A stretch of 55,170 nucleotides of DNA from Gammaproteobacteria bacterium. Lineage in GTDB: Bacteria > Pseudomonadota > Gammaproteobacteria > Steroidobacterales > Steroidobacteraceae. The stretch lies in contig DAHVQK010000062.1 of assembly GCA_027317845.1 (NCBI GenBank), positions 1-55,170 on the forward strand, read 5' to 3'. Both the position numbers and the translations under genes were made by a program. Of this stretch, positions 34,934-55,170 are shown one piece after another. The notes below the pieces were generated by a model. The model had not been told where the DNA came from and did not search any database. It saw only the letters and a list, made by a program, of their open reading frames with translations. Position 1 is the stretch's first letter; each line of letters starts with the position of its first letter.

Positions 34934-35761
34934 ATGTACACGCACCTGCAGCTTCGCGACACGGAGCGCCAGCCGGTCTCACTGAGCACGCTGGCGCGCA
35001 TGAAGGAGGAGGGGAGCAAGATCGCGAGCCTCACCTGCTATGACGCGAGCTTCGCTGTCCTGCTCGATGCGGCGGACGTCGATGTGGTGCTGGTGGGTGA
35101 TTCGCTCGGCATGGTGATCCAGGGCCGTGACACCACGGTGCCGGTCACGATGGATCACATGGTGTATCACTGCAGCATCGTGGCACGGGGACTGCATAGG
35201 CCCCTGCTCATGGCCGATCTGCCGTTCATGAGCTATCCGTCGAAGGAGCGGGCGCTCGAGAACTCCGTGCGCCTGATGCAGGACGGCGGCGCGCAGATGA
35301 TCAAGCTCGAAAGCGGCGCCGGCCAGTGCGATATCGTCGAGTTCCTGGCGAGCCACGACATCGCCGTGTGCGCGCACCTCGGCCTTCGGCCCCAGTCGGT
35401 GCACAAGACCGGCGGCTTTCGCGTGCAGGGGCGGCAGGAGGAGGGCGCCGCGCGCATGATCACGGAGGCCAAGCGGCTCGAGTCCGCCGGTGCCGACATC
35501 GTGCTGCTCGAGTGCATCCCGGCGGAGCTCGGCCAGACGATCTCCGCGGCGCTCGGCGTTCCGGTCATCGGCATCGGCGCAGGCCCCCACACGGATGGAC
35601 AGATCCTGGTGCTGTACGACATTCTCGACATCACCACGGGACGCAAGCCCCGCTTCGTGCGCAACTTCGTGACCGGGGCGGCCGACAATCTCGATGCCAT
35701 CAAGCGCTACGTCGAGGCCGTGCGGTCCGGCGCCTATCCCGCTCCCGAACATTGCTTCTGA
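34934..35761 (+). CDS. panB: 3-Methyl-2-oxobutanoate hydroxymethyltransferase
   Basis: First committed enzyme of pantothenate synthesis, adding a hydroxymethyl group from methylene-THF to alpha-ketoisovalerate. The 275-residue TIM-barrel protein has ITALTAYDASFA-like SLTCYDASFAVLLD, the metal Asp in VLVGDSLGMVIQG, TVPVTMDHMVYH, DLPFMSY, HLGLRPQSVHKTGGFRVQGR and IGIGAGPHTDGQILVLYD. It is followed after 4 bp by panC. Confidence 0.97.
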   Translation: MYTHLQLRDTERQPVSLSTLARMKEEGSKIASLTCYDASFAVLLDAADVDVVLVGDSLGMVIQGRDTTVPVTMDHMVYHCSIVARGLHRPLLMADLPFMSYPSKERALENSVRLMQDGGAQMIKLESGAGQCDIVEFLASHDIAVCAHLGLRPQSVHKTGGFRVQGRQEEGAARMITEAKRLESAGADIVLLECIPAELGQTISAALGVPVIGIGAGPHTDGQILVLYDILDITTGRKPRFVRNFVTGAADNLDAIKRYVEAVRSGAYPAPEHCF

Positions 35762-48657: not shown

Positions 48658-50178
48658 CTAGAAGAACCCGAGCGCCTTGGGCGAGTAGCTCACCAGCAGA
48701 TTCTTGGTCTGCTGGTAGTGATCGAGCATCATCCTGTGGGTCTCACGCCCGATGCCCGACTGCTTGTAGCCGCCGAACGCCGCATGCGCCGGATACGCGT
48801 GGTAGCAGTTGGTCCACACGCGTCCCGCCTGTATGCCGCGCCCCATGCGGTAGCATGTGTTGGCATCCCGCGACCACACGCCGGCGCCCAGGCCGTAGAG
48901 CGTGTCGTTGGCGAGCGCGAGCGCCTCGTCCATGTCCTTGAACGTGGTCACCGCGACCACCGGGCCGAAGATCTCCTCCTGGAAGATGCGCATCTTGTTG
49001 TCACCCTTGAACACCGTGGGCAGGATGTAATAGCCGTCCTTGAAGTCCCCGCCCAGGCGGTTGCGCTCGCCGCCGATCAGGCATTGAGCCCCCTCCTGGC
49101 GGCCGAGATCGAGGTAGGTGAGGATCTTCTCGAGCTGCTCCTGTGAGGCCTGTGCGCCGATCATGGTCGAGGGGTCGAGCGGGTCGCCCTGCTTGACGTT
49201 CGCGACGCGCTTGAGCGCGCGCTCCATGAAGCGCTCGTACACGGACTCCTGGATGAGCGCGCGTGAAGGACAGGTGCACACCTCGCCCTGGTTCAGCGCG
49301 AACATGGTGAAGCCCTCGAGGGCCTTGTCGAAGAACGCGTCGTCCTGATTGCAGACATCGGCGAAGAACACGTTCGGTGACTTGCCGCCGAGCTCCAGTG
49401 TCACGGGGATGAGGTTCTGCGCCGCATACTGCATGATGAGCCGGCCGGTGGTCGTCTCGCCGGTGAAGGCGATCTTGGCGATGCGCTTGTTCGAGGCGAG
49501 TGGTTTGCCGGCCTCCACTCCAAAGCCGTTCACGATGTTGAGCACGCCAGGGGGAAGCAGATCCCCGGCGACCTCGATGAAGGCGAGGATCGACAGTGGC
49601 GTCTGTTCGGCCGGTTTCAACACGACGCAGTTGCCCGCGGCGAGCGCCGGCGCCATCTTCCAGGCCGCCATCAACAGCGGAAAGTTCCACGGGATGATCT
49701 GGCCGACGACGCCGAGCGGCTCGTGGAAGTGGTAGGCGACGGTGTCGCGATCGAGCTCGCAGGCAGTGCCTTCCTGGGCGCGGATGCAGCCCGCGAAATA
49801 GCGGAAGTGATCGATGGCGAGCGGCAGGTCGGCGGCCATGGTCTCGCGGATGGGCTTGCCGTTGTCCCAGGTCTCCACCGTGGCGAGGTACTCGAGTTTC
49901 TCCTGTATCCGATCGGCGATCCTGTTGAGAATCACCGCCCGCTCGGCCACCGAGGTCGCGCCCCAGGCGCCCTTGGCGGCATGGGCGGCATCGAGCGCGA
50001 GCTCGATGTCCTCGGCCGTGGAGCGCGGCACCTCGCACAGTGCCCCCCCGGTGACCGGCGTGAGGTTGGTGAAATACTCGCCGCGGACGGGCGGCACCCA
50101 CTTCCCGCCGATGTAGTTGCCGTACTGTTTCTTCAGCTGGACTTTGACCCGGCCGTGAGTGCTCGGATTGATGGACAT
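48658..50178 (-). CDS. NAD-dependent aldehyde dehydrogenase (AcoD/ExaC type)
   Basis: Oxidises an aldehyde, probably acetaldehyde, to the acid. The 506-residue protein has [34 protein letters not shown] with the general-base Glu, and the catalytic Cys in [16 protein letters not shown]; the double-Cys CTC form is typical of the ExaC/AcoD branch. The C-terminal [20 protein letters not shown] and SGIGRE complete the fold. GAGG lies 8 nt before the ATG, and a sigma-54 promoter lies 39 nt further upstream. It is followed by DUF779. No alcohol dehydrogenase is in this cluster. Confidence 0.95.
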
Positions 50179-50217: not shown

Positions 50218-50233
50218 TGCAAGGGACATGCCA
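50218..50233 (-). promoter_or_regulatory. Sigma-54 promoter of the aldehyde dehydrogenase gene
   Basis: On the minus strand TGGCAT-GTCCC-TTGCA matches the -24/-12 consensus TGGCAC-N5-TTGCW with one difference. The predicted start of transcription, about 50207, gives a 29-nt leader to the ATG at 50178 with a GAGG ribosome site. Confidence 0.85.
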
Positions 50234-50313: not shown

Positions 50314-50381
50314 CGCCAAGCGTGATGTTCCGCGGCGAAACGGATGTGCGTCGCCGGAAGTGTGGCGCAACGGAACAGTGC

Positions 50382-52526
50382 TCAGCGCAGAGCGACCGTG
50401 AAGCCCGCGAATACGTTGAACCCGGGTGCGGGCTCGAAGTACGCCCCGTTGGCCTGGTCGACGATCACCGCGCTCACGTAGCGGCGATCGAGCACATTGT
50501 TCAGCCTCAGGAAAAGCTCGAGACGTTGCGCTGCGATGCGCATCCGATAGCCACCGCTTACGTTGAAGACAGGGTAGGCGCCAGCGTGCTCACTGTTCGT
50601 CGCATCGACCGGGATGGCGCCGAGGTACTGTCCGCTCACGCTCGCATGCCAGCCGAGGTCGCCGCCCCAGGTCAACTGCGCATAGGCGTCATTGCGCGCA
50701 ACGCCGGGCAGGCGGTTGCCGGAAGCTACCAGCACCGTCGGAGTGCGGCACGGTGCCGCCGTACAGGTGCGATAGGCGTCGATGAAGACGGCATCGACAT
50801 AAGTGTAAGCGACCCGCAGCCGCCACTCCGGCGCGAAGACGTAGTCCGCTGACGCCTGCGCTCCGCTGCGGCGGGTGCGCCCCGCGTTGACGTAGGTCGA
50901 GCGGCCGCCGGCGCTCGTCAGGACGACGATCTCGTCGTTCGTATGGGTGTCGAAGGCGGCGACATCCGCCGAGAGATGGCGGCCCAGGCGCATCTTGGCA
51001 CCAATCTCACCGTCGTTGCTGCGCGAGGGACGCAGCGCGAGATTCAATCCCGGCTGGCCGTCGGGCCGATACGCGAGCTCGGAGGCGAGGGGAGTGCGGA
51101 ATCCCTGGCCGAATGAGGCGTAAAGGTGCAGCCACGGGCGCGCCGCGTAGAGGACCCCGAGCACCGGGGTGGTGGCCGTGTAGGTGATCACGCCGCTGCC
51201 GTTGCCGCCGGCGAAGAAGTGATCTTCCGTGATGAAACGCACCTCGCTGTGACGCACCCCGGCCGTAAGCGTCCAGGTCCGAGTGAGAGCGAGGCTCGCC
51301 TGCGTGTATTCATCGATATTGCGCGCGATGTCGTTCTCATCGCGCCGCAGCGCGCCCTCGACACCCAACGTGCCGCCGACGAAATTGTCGAAGCCTCTGC
51401 GACGCTCGTTCTGCGTGTCGTAGCTTACCCCGGCCACCGAGGAAAGCGCGTGGCCCGCGAGCGCTCCCTGCCAGCTCCAGCGCGCATCGCCGCCGCCAAA
51501 GGTCCGATGGAGGTCCACGACGCCGCCGGAGCTGGTCGGGGGTTGCTGCGCGCCGACCGGGATCGAGAGGTACTGCAGCACCGTCCGGTGGCCGTAATAG
51601 CCCATCAGGCGCAGCGACTGGTGGGCGGTGAGCTCGAGGTGGTAGATGAGACCGCCTTGCTGCTGCTCGAGGCTCTTGCGGGTGTCGAACGCCAGCGCCG
51701 TGGCGGAGGTCTGATCGGGGTTCGAGGCGACCTGGGCTGCGGTGAGGCCCTGGGGATCGTTCGAATCGGGACGGGAAAGCACGTTGGCGACGAGCGTGAG
51801 GCTGCTGTGCCGGCTCAAGGCGTAGTCGACCTTGCCGTTGAAGGACTCGCTGCGGGCGCTCTGGTGGGGCCGGAAGCCCCGCCAGGAGAAGTGGGTGAAA
51901 TCGAGGTTGTAATCGAGTCCCCCGATCGCATCGCTCGCATCGATGCCGGCCCGCACGGCGCCGAAGCCGCCGAAACCGATGTCCGTGCGCACGGTGCCCG
52001 GGGAGGTTCCCCGGGCTGTGAACAGTTGGATGACGCCCCCCGAGGAGTTGCCGTAGAGCGCGGAAAACGGCCCCTCGAGCACCTCCACGCGCTCGGCAGA
52101 GCCGAGATTGAACTGCGAGATCTGCCCCTGGCCGTCCGGACCACTCTGCGGGATGCCGTCCTGGTAGATGCGCACCCCGCGCACTCCGAAGGCCGATTCC
52201 GCGCCGATGCCGCGGATCGAGATCTGCTGATCCTGGGCGTAGTTGTACTGATTGCGCGCGAGCAGCCCCGGAACCGACTGCGCGCCGTCGGCGAAGTTCA
52301 CCCCGGGGGCGTCGGTGCGCAATTGCGCGCCCGAGAGACTCGCGATGCTCGCGGCAACGTCGAAGGCGGGTGTGGCGATGCGCGTCGCCGTGACCACGAT
52401 GTCCGAGAGCGCACCCTGAGCGGCTGCGCGGGTCGGCGCCGGGGCGCCCACGGCCATCGCGACCGCGATGAGGGCGCCGGTGACACGTGAAGATACCGCC
52501 GCTCGAGACCGGGACATCGTTTTCAT
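50382..52526 (-). CDS. TonB-dependent outer-membrane receptor
   Basis: A receptor of 714 residues. A signal peptide (SRVTGALIAVAMAVGAPAPT) is followed by a possible TonB box (DIVVTATRI), the plug domain (VPGLLARNQYNYAQDQQISI, RGIGAESAFGVRGVRIYQDG, ERVEVLEGPFSALYGNSSGG) and a 22-strand barrel. It ends GFTVALR rather than with an aromatic residue. The ligand is unknown. It lies between the porin and the aldehyde dehydrogenase on the same strand but beyond a terminator, so it has its own promoter; no sigma-54 site is seen there. The second ATG (52517) is also possible. Confidence 0.9.
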   Translation of the reverse strand: MKTMSRSRAAVSSRVTGALIAVAMAVGAPAPTRAAAQGALSDIVVTATRIATPAFDVAASIASLSGAQLRTDAPGVNFADGAQSVPGLLARNQYNYAQDQQISIRGIGAESAFGVRGVRIYQDGIPQSGPDGQGQISQFNLGSAERVEVLEGPFSALYGNSSGGVIQLFTARGTSPGTVRTDIGFGGFGAVRAGIDASDAIGGLDYNLDFTHFSWRGFRPHQSARSESFNGKVDYALSRHSSLTLVANVLSRPDSNDPQGLTAAQVASNPDQTSATALAFDTRKSLEQQQGGLIYHLELTAHQSLRLMGYYGHRTVLQYLSIPVGAQQPPTSSGGVVDLHRTFGGGDARWSWQGALAGHALSSVAGVSYDTQNERRRGFDNFVGGTLGVEGALRRDENDIARNIDEYTQASLALTRTWTLTAGVRHSEVRFITEDHFFAGGNGSGVITYTATTPVLGVLYAARPWLHLYASFGQGFRTPLASELAYRPDGQPGLNLALRPSRSNDGEIGAKMRLGRHLSADVAAFDTHTNDEIVVLTSAGGRSTYVNAGRTRRSGAQASADYVFAPEWRLRVAYTYVDAVFIDAYRTCTAAPCRTPTVLVASGNRLPGVARNDAYAQLTWGGDLGWHASVSGQYLGAIPVDATNSEHAGAYPVFNVSGGYRMRIAAQRLELFLRLNNVLDRRYVSAVIVDQANGAYFEPAPGFNVFAGFTVALR

Positions 52527-52687: not shown

Positions 52688-53986
52688 TCAGAAGCTCAGA
52701 AACAGGCCGGCGTTGATGTTCCAGCTGGAGTTGCGCTGATTCAGATCGTTGGTCGCGTGAATCTGGCTGAACTCCCCGACCAGCAGCAGATCGTGGGTCA
52801 GGTGGTGATAGATGCCGGCGGTCCACTTGTCGTTCTTCTCGACGAGCGTCGGCAGGGTGAGCATGTCATTGCCCGTGGGGTCGAGCTTGCTCTGGCCGTA
52901 ATTCACCCCGAACTTCGTCTTGCCTACCGTGTAGGTGAGCTGCGCGAGGAAGCCCTCGGAATCGCGCGGCCGGCCGAGCGTGTCGTTCGAGAGGACGAAC
53001 AGTCCCGTGGTGCCGACCCCCTTCGCCCGGTAGTACCAGCCCGCGGCCTGGAAGGGGCCCGCGGTGTACATGCCGCCGAGATCGAAGCCGGCGCTGCTGT
53101 AGGCGAGCTCACCCGCGGCGCCGGCCAGCACGCACGCATTCGCCTGCAGTGCCGTGTCGGTGCAGGCGATTCGCTGCTTCTGATACAGACCGCTCGCCGA
53201 GAGATACACCGGCCCCATCTTGTAGGCGATCTTCGCCTGCAGGCCGGGGCTCGAGTGGTTGACGGGGATCTGCCCGAGCGTGTTGAGCGGATCGAATATG
53301 CCGACGGTGATCTTCGTTCCACCGAAGCTCGGGGTCGTATAGTCGATCTGCGACAGCCAGTCGGTGTAGATGTAGCCAAGACCGATCGAGCCCAGGGACG
53401 TGTTCGCCGGCGCGGCATAGTCGCCGTTGCCCGCGCCGACGCCAAGCAGCGTCATGTCGTTGAGGATGGCGTCGGACTGGAACAGTCCGATGTTACGGCC
53501 CGCCATGATGGTGCCCATTCTCTTGTTGCCCACCGTGAGGAACACCTGGCGGATGTCGAGGCCGGCGGTGCCGAGGGCGGTGTGGCCGAGGTTCCCCGCT
53601 CCGGTCTGCAGGTTCGGACTGCCGCTGTCATTCGTGCTGATGCCCGGATACAGGCCGAACGTGAAACCGATGTCGTAGCCGTCCTGGGTCGTCAGGCCGC
53701 TGATGGTGAGCGCCGCCGGCAGCAGGCCGTTCGATACCGACGAGGAGCTGTTCGTCGCCACGCAAGCGAGACCTCCTGCCACGTTGGCCGAGCTCGATGG
53801 GGCCTGGCAATGCGAATAGATGTAGTGCGCGTTGACGTTGCCGTCGAAATTCAAGGTCCATTTGCCGGCTTTGACGCCGATCGCATGGGCCGGCGGGATG
53901 CCGGTGAGGAAGCCGGCGAGCGCGCCGGCGACGAGGATGACCAGAGTGTTGGTCATGGCCGGTGGAGAGATGCTGTGCAGTCTCAT
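52688..53986 (-). CDS. Outer-membrane porin
   Basis: A 432-residue beta-barrel protein with signal peptide (TNTLVILVAGALAGFLTGIP, cleavage near AHA) and C-terminal Phe (WNINAGLFLSF). The opening strand GKWTLNFDGNVNAHYIYSHC, the IMAGRNIGLFQ loop and regularly alternating strands fit a 16-stranded general-diffusion porin. Three or four cysteines in the loops are unusual for porins. GGGGG lies 8 nt before the ATG. It is driven by a sigma-54 promoter like the aldehyde dehydrogenase gene, so it may admit the substrate of that pathway. Confidence 0.88.
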   Translation of the reverse strand: MRLHSISPPAMTNTLVILVAGALAGFLTGIPPAHAIGVKAGKWTLNFDGNVNAHYIYSHCQAPSSSANVAGGLACVATNSSSSVSNGLLPAALTISGLTTQDGYDIGFTFGLYPGISTNDSGSPNLQTGAGNLGHTALGTAGLDIRQVFLTVGNKRMGTIMAGRNIGLFQSDAILNDMTLLGVGAGNGDYAAPANTSLGSIGLGYIYTDWLSQIDYTTPSFGGTKITVGIFDPLNTLGQIPVNHSSPGLQAKIAYKMGPVYLSASGLYQKQRIACTDTALQANACVLAGAAGELAYSSAGFDLGGMYTAGPFQAAGWYYRAKGVGTTGLFVLSNDTLGRPRDSEGFLAQLTYTVGKTKFGVNYGQSKLDPTGNDMLTLPTLVEKNDKWTAGIYHHLTHDLLLVGEFSQIHATNDLNQRNSSWNINAGLFLSF

Positions 53987-54026
53987 CGAATTAACCCCCT
54001 GGTTGTGCACTTGACGGGCGGGTCGC

Positions 54027-54042
54027 TGCAAACGCCGTGCCA
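54027..54042 (-). promoter_or_regulatory. Sigma-54 promoter of the porin gene
   Basis: On the minus strand TGGCAC-GGCGT-TTGCA is an exact match to the -24/-12 consensus. Transcription should begin near 54016, giving a 30-nt leader to the porin ATG at 53986. Confidence 0.92.
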
Positions 54043-54321
54043 CTCTGTCGGCGCGGCGCTGTTGCGCCCGGCACACGATGCGACGTAAGGCCGTATCCGT
54101 GCCGTCCTGGTGGCGAGTGGCGCGGCGTCGGTGTCGGATCGCGGTTTACTGCGCGACCACACGGATGCAGGCCCGGCACGCCGATAGCTTGCCGGGATTT
54201 GCGGAAGGATGAGCCTTGGACTCGATGGAACCGGCGGGTAGTGTCGCAAGGTGTGCCGGATGGGTGACAGGGTTGTGTCGTTTCTTGTCATCGCGATACA
54301 GCGCGCCTCGCGGCGTTGCAG
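54043..54321. other. Upstream region of the porin promoter
   Basis: No gene is seen. This region should hold the enhancer sites for the sigma-54 promoter, but no clear dyad repeated from the aldehyde dehydrogenase upstream region was found. Confidence 0.4.
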
Positions 54322-54378: not shown

Positions 54379-55170
54379 TCAGTGCCGGATGGCGAGCGAG
54401 ATGCTGAGGCGCCGCATCTTGCGGTAGAGCGTATTGCGGCCCATGCCGAGCTGACGGGCCACCCGGCTGATATTGCCGTGGTGCAGTTCGATCTCGTGCA
54501 TGAGGGCGTTGCGCTCGGCCTTCTCGAGCGGATTGAGCCCGATCGCCTCCTGCGGGAGCTCGGCTTCGGAATCCGGCTCGCCGGCGCCATAGTCGGCAGG
54601 CAGGCTGCCCGCATCCAGCTGATCGTTCGCGCGCATCGCGATCATGCCGCGCAGCACGTTGCGCAGCTGGCGGATGTTGCCGGGCCAGCTGTAGGCCTTG
54701 AGCGCCCCGACCAGCTCCTCGCCCATGCACACCGAGGGCGTCGCGGCGCTCTCCTGTGTGAACAGATGACGGATGAGCGCGGCCTTGTCGCGGCGCTCGC
54801 GCAGCGGCGGCAGCGTGAGCGCGAGGCCCTGCAGGCGGTAGAAGAGATCCTCGCGGAACTCACCGCACCGCACCTTCTCGTGCAGCGCCTCGCGCGATGA
54901 GCTGATCAGGCGGATGTCGATCGGCGCGGGCGCTCCCGCGGCGGGCCGCGACAACTCGCGCTCCTCGATCATGCGCAGCAGCTGCCCCTGAAGCGGCAGC
55001 GGCAGCTCCCCGACGTCATCGAGAAACAAAGTCCCGCCGTCGGCCTGCAGGATGCGCCCCTGCGCCGGGTCCGAGCCACTCGCGGAGCTTGCTCCGAAGA
55101 GCTCCTCGGCGAGCTCACCCTCGCCGAGGGAGCCGCAGTGCACCGCGACGAAGGGCCGCTCGGAGCGCTC
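54379..55170 (-). CDS. Enhancer-binding-protein-type Fis-family regulator, GAFTGA-less, partial
   Basis: The C-terminal 263 codons or so of an AAA+ regulator; the N-terminus and Walker A lie beyond the window. Seen are the end of the first ATPase segment (RPFVAVHCGSL...ELAEELFG), Walker B GGTLFLDDVGELPL, the arginine-finger region FREDLFYRLQGLALTLPPLRER, the C-domain SWPGNIRQLRNVLRG and a Fis-type helix-turn-helix (HGNISRVARQLGMGRNTLYR). In sigma-54 activators ELFG is followed by a loop with GAFTGA; here it reads ASSASGSDPAQGRI, about four residues shorter and without the motif. It would regulate the adjacent cluster by position. The match to AcoR/ExaE-like regulators is at family level. Confidence 0.85.
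   Translation of the reverse strand, partial: ERSERPFVAVHCGSLGEGELAEELFGASSASGSDPAQGRILQADGGTLFLDDVGELPLPLQGQLLRMIEERELSRPAAGAPAPIDIRLISSSREALHEKVRCGEFREDLFYRLQGLALTLPPLRERRDKAALIRHLFTQESAATPSVCMGEELVGALKAYSWPGNIRQLRNVLRGMIAMRANDQLDAGSLPADYGAGEPDSEAELPQEAIGLNPLEKAERNALMHEIELHHGNISRVARQLGMGRNTLYRKMRRLSISLAIRH

Follow-up and report, generated by a model that had tools for sequence, protein, structure and literature searches.

The window, by which we mean the whole stretch of 55,170 nucleotides that was analysed, is an entire contig (G000:C149:1-55170) of a genome that is 63% complete. Because this contig ends inside the gene at its last positions, that gene is represented by an open frame of 263 amino acids without a start, Walker A lying in the part lost beyond the contig end. 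Judging from longer relatives, in which a GAF domain (found by Pfam in two of them) and Walker A precede the AAA+ domain, the missing N-terminal part would be organised likewise. The following features of the window are relevant here:

54379..55170, minus strand: loop-less AAA+ regulator, C-terminal 263 amino acids with AAA+, lid and Fis HTH (open frame and relatives)
55060..55092, minus strand: ASSASGSDPAQ, residues 27-37 of the fragment, replacing the GAFTGA loop (translation and alignment)
52688..54076, minus strand: Gram-negative porin (Porin_4; frame and domain)
54027..54042, minus strand: putative porin sigma-54 promoter TGGCACGGCGTTTGCA (matrix scan and alignment)
50382..52526, minus strand: TonB-dependent receptor, without a sigma-54 promoter upstream
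48658..50178, minus strand: aldehyde dehydrogenase (ALDH)
50218..50233, minus strand: putative ALDH sigma-54 promoter TGGCATGTCCCTTGCA (matrix scan and orthologues)

The preliminary description of this DNA had proposed an AAA+ fragment with Walker B, an arginine-finger region and a Fis HTH, in which the GAFTGA of loop L1 was replaced by the shorter ASSASGSDPAQ, and both points were borne out. Specifically, the translated fragment keeps Walker B (FLDD), the arginine-finger region (REDLFYRL), the AAA lid and the Fis HTH, and Pfam matched it to the sigma-54 interaction domain (PF00158, E 6.5e-29) as well as to the AAA lid and Fis HTH. Its L1 segment reads ELFGASSASGSDPAQGRILQADGG, and GAFTGA is absent.

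Close relatives of the gene (at least 64% identical to the query, with a carrier cut-off of E <= 1e-70) were found in 24 of the 58 genomes of the genus, and none of the resulting 27 rows, the window's included, has GAFTGA, as opposed to 37/37 other Steroidobacteraceae rows that do. The check that had been proposed, whether close homologues share the loss, therefore came out positive for the entire clade, and since the loss is common to 27 rows, an assembly or frameshift artefact or a sequencing slip is ruled out. The segment that replaces the loop differs in sequence and length among these rows. In a quick tree of 120 rows from which the loop columns were omitted, the 27 rows group in a single clade (SH-aLRT 100) that is embedded among GAFTGA paralogues, next to GAFTGA proteins from the same family and genus. 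Their nearest relatives in the tree are GAFTGA activators of the Steroidobacteraceae, termed AcoR-like here from their domain order, namely a sister clade and E1, a GAFTGA paralogue encoded on contig C101 of the window genome itself. Of 75 distant loci fetched, L068, a copy of L036, was set aside, and motif filters passed 54 of the other 74; they left L016 and L020, which both show GAFTGA, out of the tree, and they matched row L019 by chance, the printed stretch of which reads GAFTGA. The loop reading also takes in L142 and L143. An order-wide search of 396 genomes (E <= 1e-110, at most three candidates scored per genome, the window's own cut copy not among the matches) yielded matches outside the genus that were 38-43% identical, which is the range of the GAFTGA paralogues, so that rarer loop-less members outside the genus are possible. 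The loss of GAFTGA is real and old.

The loop-less gene is interrupted by an assembly break in five window-subgroup genomes (G000, G038, G127, G162 and G171), the loci at such breaks being the window end at 55170 and L036, L041, L185, L189, L187, L188, L191, L192, L194 and L195. In the five end pairs compared (G038, G127, G162), two copies agree at the break over exactly 127 bases and diverge farther outward, and we read them as two paralogues whose middle was homogenised, perhaps by gene conversion. The second copy in G170 is nearly identical to that of G173, and may reflect mixing of strains. A second sigma-54 gene match (PF04552) occurs in 11 of the 58 genus genomes (G145, G153, G157, G161, G166, G177, G183, G184, G185, G186 and G191), ten of which carry the loop-less gene, and is possibly a mere lineage marker.

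Residue roles in the ATPase were assigned after PspF, in part from passages of PMC7175178. The Walker-A lysine is present in 26/26 rows that cover it (the window's is not among these), and the Walker-B aspartate, both arginine fingers and the sensor-II arginine are present in 27/27 loop-less rows. The second Walker-B acid is aspartate in all 27, whereas it is glutamate in 37/37 nearby and 53/54 distant GAFTGA rows; E1 and the sister clade accordingly keep both GAFTGA and a Walker-B D-E where the loop-less clade has D-D. The switch asparagine has become histidine in 17/27 loop-less rows. From these residues, the ATPase of the loop-less clade looks kept. Structure models add little: mean pLDDT was 76.0 for the loop-less C-terminus and 79.7 for a GAFTGA control, with core elements in the same order and the helices flanking L1 separated by 13 versus 17 residues, and Foldseek returned matches to the family in general. 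The loss of the signature motif and the seemingly unconstrained replacing segment might suggest a decaying gene without function. However, the clade matches, which are at least 64% identical to the query, are free of internal stops, the acidic residues of Walker B and the arginine fingers are all retained, and the upstream footprint described below is conserved, and we consider this explanation extremely unlikely and reject a pseudogene.

A class of family members that lack GAFTGA and work at sigma-70 promoters has been published, as described in parts of PMC3162934 and PMC10274813. Within this class, DhaR of E. coli (NP_415719.2; sigma-70, GAFTGA-less) resembles the loop-less protein in its AAA+ domain and Fis HTH and in the unrelated segment that replaces GAFTGA at the same place, and DhaR is also the best NCBIfam family of two longer loop-less relatives (PrpR being the best for the window fragment). 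It differs in having lost the Walker-B acids, arginine fingers and sensor II, all of which the loop-less clade keeps, and in the tree it sits on a long branch away from the clade. E. coli TyrR (NP_415839.1) likewise lacks GAFTGA and keeps the ATPase residues, and according to passages of PMC4374768 it works through strong boxes and weaker ones close to sigma-70 promoters, in a divergent region as well. In contrast, the loop-less relatives have a GAF domain, TyrR is not their sister in the tree, and the palindrome found in the loop-less clade differs from the TyrR consensus given there. Membership of either family was rejected by curated cut-offs and by the tree, in which both E. coli proteins form long branches of unsure placement: scores for the window fragment and the two longer relatives were 155.9 (not its best family), 268.7 and 269.3 bits for DhaR (NF008485; cut-off 551) and 124.7, 171.8 and 188.2 bits for TyrR (NF008085; cut-off 576). 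The loop loss appears to be independent of those in DhaR and TyrR. NtrC of Caulobacter and Rhodobacter capsulatus shares a lineage-wide loss of the L1 motif and action at sigma-70 promoters (passages of PMC10274813), but is set apart by its description as a response regulator with a receiver domain, as opposed to the GAF domain of the loop-less relatives. VpsR, HupR and YplP, named in part of PMC3162934 as GAFTGA-defective members of the family, are alike by description, and VpsR was also matched in the PDB search. Among the literature matches listed, whose coverage leaves out most subscription journals, the loop-less family is not named.

Of the 110,310 positions scored in the window with a sigma-54 matrix built from a general consensus, the porin and ALDH sites take the top two places, and the sites called here score 18-20 under this matrix. 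The bare pattern count is useless alone, as the one-mismatch pattern is no commoner than chance (5 found, 3.56 expected). The third best site (35181-35196) lies inside a coding frame that looks like panB, and is probably due to chance. The preliminary description had placed near-consensus -24/-12 promoters at the two genes nearest to the regulator; the promoters look genuine, but the ALDH gene stands third in line from the regulator, and the intervening TonB-receptor gene has no such promoter upstream (best score 4.9). The porin itself probably begins with the ATG at 53986, which lies downstream of its sigma-54 promoter.

Porin sigma-54 promoters are also present in G111 and G018, and no site of 18 or more was found at the porin of G172, in a rescan that left out G080 and G170. 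The motif upstream of the porin is TGTGTCA...TGACA, which in the window differs from the palindrome described below, the best match to it there being 7/12. A short, GAF-less GAFTGA activator was seen beside the porin (L037, L038, L042, L043, L209 and L210), lying between the loop-less gene and the porin in G018, G102, G111 and G172. The TGTGTCA/TGACA motif occurs in the region shared by porin and short activator in the three genomes aligned (G111, G018 and G102), and this protein is possibly the porin's activator in those genomes. A search for it in G000, G038, G127, G162 and G171 gave nothing above 50% identity (two controls gave 74 and 76%), so that there is no candidate activator for the porin promoter of the window subgroup.

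Where both genes are seen, the loop-less gene is mostly divergent from a Zn-alcohol dehydrogenase (Zn-ADH), with a shared upstream region. No sigma-54 promoter was found upstream of the loop-less gene in its own direction (best score 9.4 in 17 rows), and sigma-54 scores upstream of Zn-ADH are at most 8.0 in 11/12 rows, with a weak sigma-54-like site (13.9) in G183. In four sister genomes with GAFTGA proteins, two Zn-ADH sites score 16.6 (L200, L203) and two at most 4.0, hinting at a switch from sigma-54 to sigma-70. Alignment of twenty loop-less upstream regions (median pairwise identity 0.495) revealed a conserved palindrome, TGTYCC-N5-GGAACA, and a -10 element, GGCATAAT; counting of spaced 5-base dyads had given mixed matches. 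The palindrome matches at 10-12/12 in 15 of the twenty, and five second-copy regions carry a shifted form (8-9/12). The -10 element reads GGCATAAT in 18 regions and CATACT in two, at a near-fixed 57-60 bp past the palindrome where measured, which would place the palindrome centre near -80. A half-site, mostly TGTRYC, lies about 31 bp past the palindrome in all twenty regions, and no -35 element was seen in them. This arrangement makes the gene's own promoter look sigma-70-like. On the Zn-ADH side, a block AGTCT/AGTTT is present in 14/15 rows divergent from Zn-ADH versus 0/5 others, and the palindrome reaches 10-12/12 in 12/12 carrier rows versus at most 8/12 in the four sister genomes that served as control. 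A contig end of the window's own genome (G000:C117:4-204, L190) holds a short stretch from the N-terminus of another loop-less copy, preceded by the shifted palindrome and GGCATAAT.

The same palindrome was found upstream of ALDH in the window:

50326..50342, minus strand: palindrome, 10/12 to TGTTCC-N5-GGAACA, probable E1 enhancer
50361..50377, minus strand: second palindrome, 10/12, probable E1 enhancer

Across 22 loci, 35 sites reach 10/12, of which 14 lie at the loop-less gene, six at ALDH (one of them, in G111, shared with E1), three at a PQQ-alcohol dehydrogenase (PQQ-ADH), four at E1 and eight elsewhere. ALDH orthologues of at least 83% identity occur in 18 of the 58 genomes, and 17 of these have both a near-perfect sigma-54 promoter and a palindrome of at least 10/12 upstream. 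Three more distant ALDHs (73-76%) gave sigma-54 scores of 18.9, 15.8 and 15.8 and palindromes of 9, 7 and 7.

E1, searched at 67% identity or more to the C101 copy, reads GAFTGA in all 21 genomes that carry it; in five matches (G038, G102, G119, G172 and G181) the search tool counted a single stop, and in these GAFTGA lies in open frames of 638-681 amino acids. All 17 genomes with the ALDH promoter carry E1, and the promoter is kept without a detected loop-less gene in G167, G181 and G182 (94, 75 and 90% complete). The ALDH of G177 has neither promoter nor palindrome, and no E1 was detected in this genome, the lack of which is unsure because the genome is 73% complete. In G018, G102, G111 and G172, E1 lies between the TonB receptor and ALDH. 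In the window genome it adjoins PQQ-ADH, which has a perfect sigma-54 promoter, as found in 6/6 loci; the palindrome reaches 10/12 there in only 3/10 rows, the window genome's among them, and the use of the palindrome by E1 at PQQ-ADH is therefore weakly backed.

Because the ALDH promoter follows E1 and not the loop-less gene, a second activator elsewhere, one of the options offered at the outset, is best supported for ALDH; this support does not extend to the porin of the window. Another of those options, that the loop-less protein makes a novel contact with sigma-54 and activates the promoters next to its gene, might draw on the near-perfect sigma-54 promoters that adjoin the gene, on an rpoN match in 24/24 carriers (ten with two) and on the window subgroup's porin promoter, for which the search gave no candidate activator. 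Nevertheless, a new contact is unsupported, because the replacing segment varies within the clade and the gene's own conserved region, without a sigma-54 promoter in its direction, looks sigma-70-like, and the retention of the ALDH promoter without the loop-less gene further makes it very improbable.

Instead, we favour, with a probability of about 0.68, the reading that the loop-less protein is a regulator of the sigma-70 type and has its operator in common with E1, which in turn drives ALDH via sigma-54. An AcoR-like sigma-54 activator with GAF, AAA+ and Fis HTH would have been the ancestor, the part touching sigma-54 having been lost. The descendant would control sigma-70-type promoters, namely its own and that of the Zn-ADH that is its divergent neighbour in relatives, acting through the palindrome, which lies some 80 bp ahead of the start, and through a weaker half-site that is closer to the start by roughly three helical turns. 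Separately, E1 would drive the sigma-54 promoters of ALDH and, elsewhere in the genome, of PQQ-ADH, using the same palindrome at least at ALDH. We infer the pairing of protein and site, the direction of control and the sigma-70 nature of the promoter from sequence patterns. The palindrome at the loop-less gene might also be bound by E1 or by another Fis-HTH protein; it is kept there in five carriers without detected E1 (G145, G157, G177, G183 and G184; the E1-negative carriers G185 and G191 lay outside this check), which speaks against E1 but not against other paralogues.

Since the two proteins appear to share one operator, an antagonist role, as had also been suggested, is possible: the loop-less protein would occupy the shared palindrome or join E1 in mixed rings, damping E1 at ALDH. 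Such built-in antagonism, which may exist besides the sigma-70 role, would fit the presence of the same palindrome at both promoter classes and the arginine fingers kept in the clade, and GAFTGA-less mutants of Caulobacter NtrC alter sigma-54-dependent genes of another activator, according to part of PMC12421884, which makes cross-talk plausible. It would also fit the co-occurrence of the two genes, with E1 present in 17/24 loop-less carriers versus 4/34 non-carriers (17 genomes with both, 7 with the loop-less gene only, 4 with E1 only, 30 with neither; Fisher p 5e-6, related genomes not being independent and some being incomplete). However, this co-occurrence may reflect shared descent, seven loop-less carriers have no detected E1, and both palindrome and promoter of ALDH are kept in the three genomes where no loop-less gene was detected, so that we regard antagonism as a tentative alternative. 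Similarly tentative is a further reading, in which a single palindrome would serve a sigma-70-type regulator at some promoters while a sigma-54 activator would use it at others, and the loop-less partner, as a dedicated competitor or dominant-negative subunit, would set the gain of the sigma-54 alcohol regulon.

The clade thus provides a further case, in an AcoR-like group, in which the loop that contacts sigma-54 has been lost throughout and apparently independently, with an ATPase that looks kept and a Walker-B glutamate replaced by aspartate in every compared member. As the DNA site also seems to be used by an intact paralogue encoded in the same genome, the clade would offer a natural test of a ring without the sigma-54 loop, and the pair of loop-less protein and E1 a test of how a regulon may be divided between sigma-54 and sigma-70 control.
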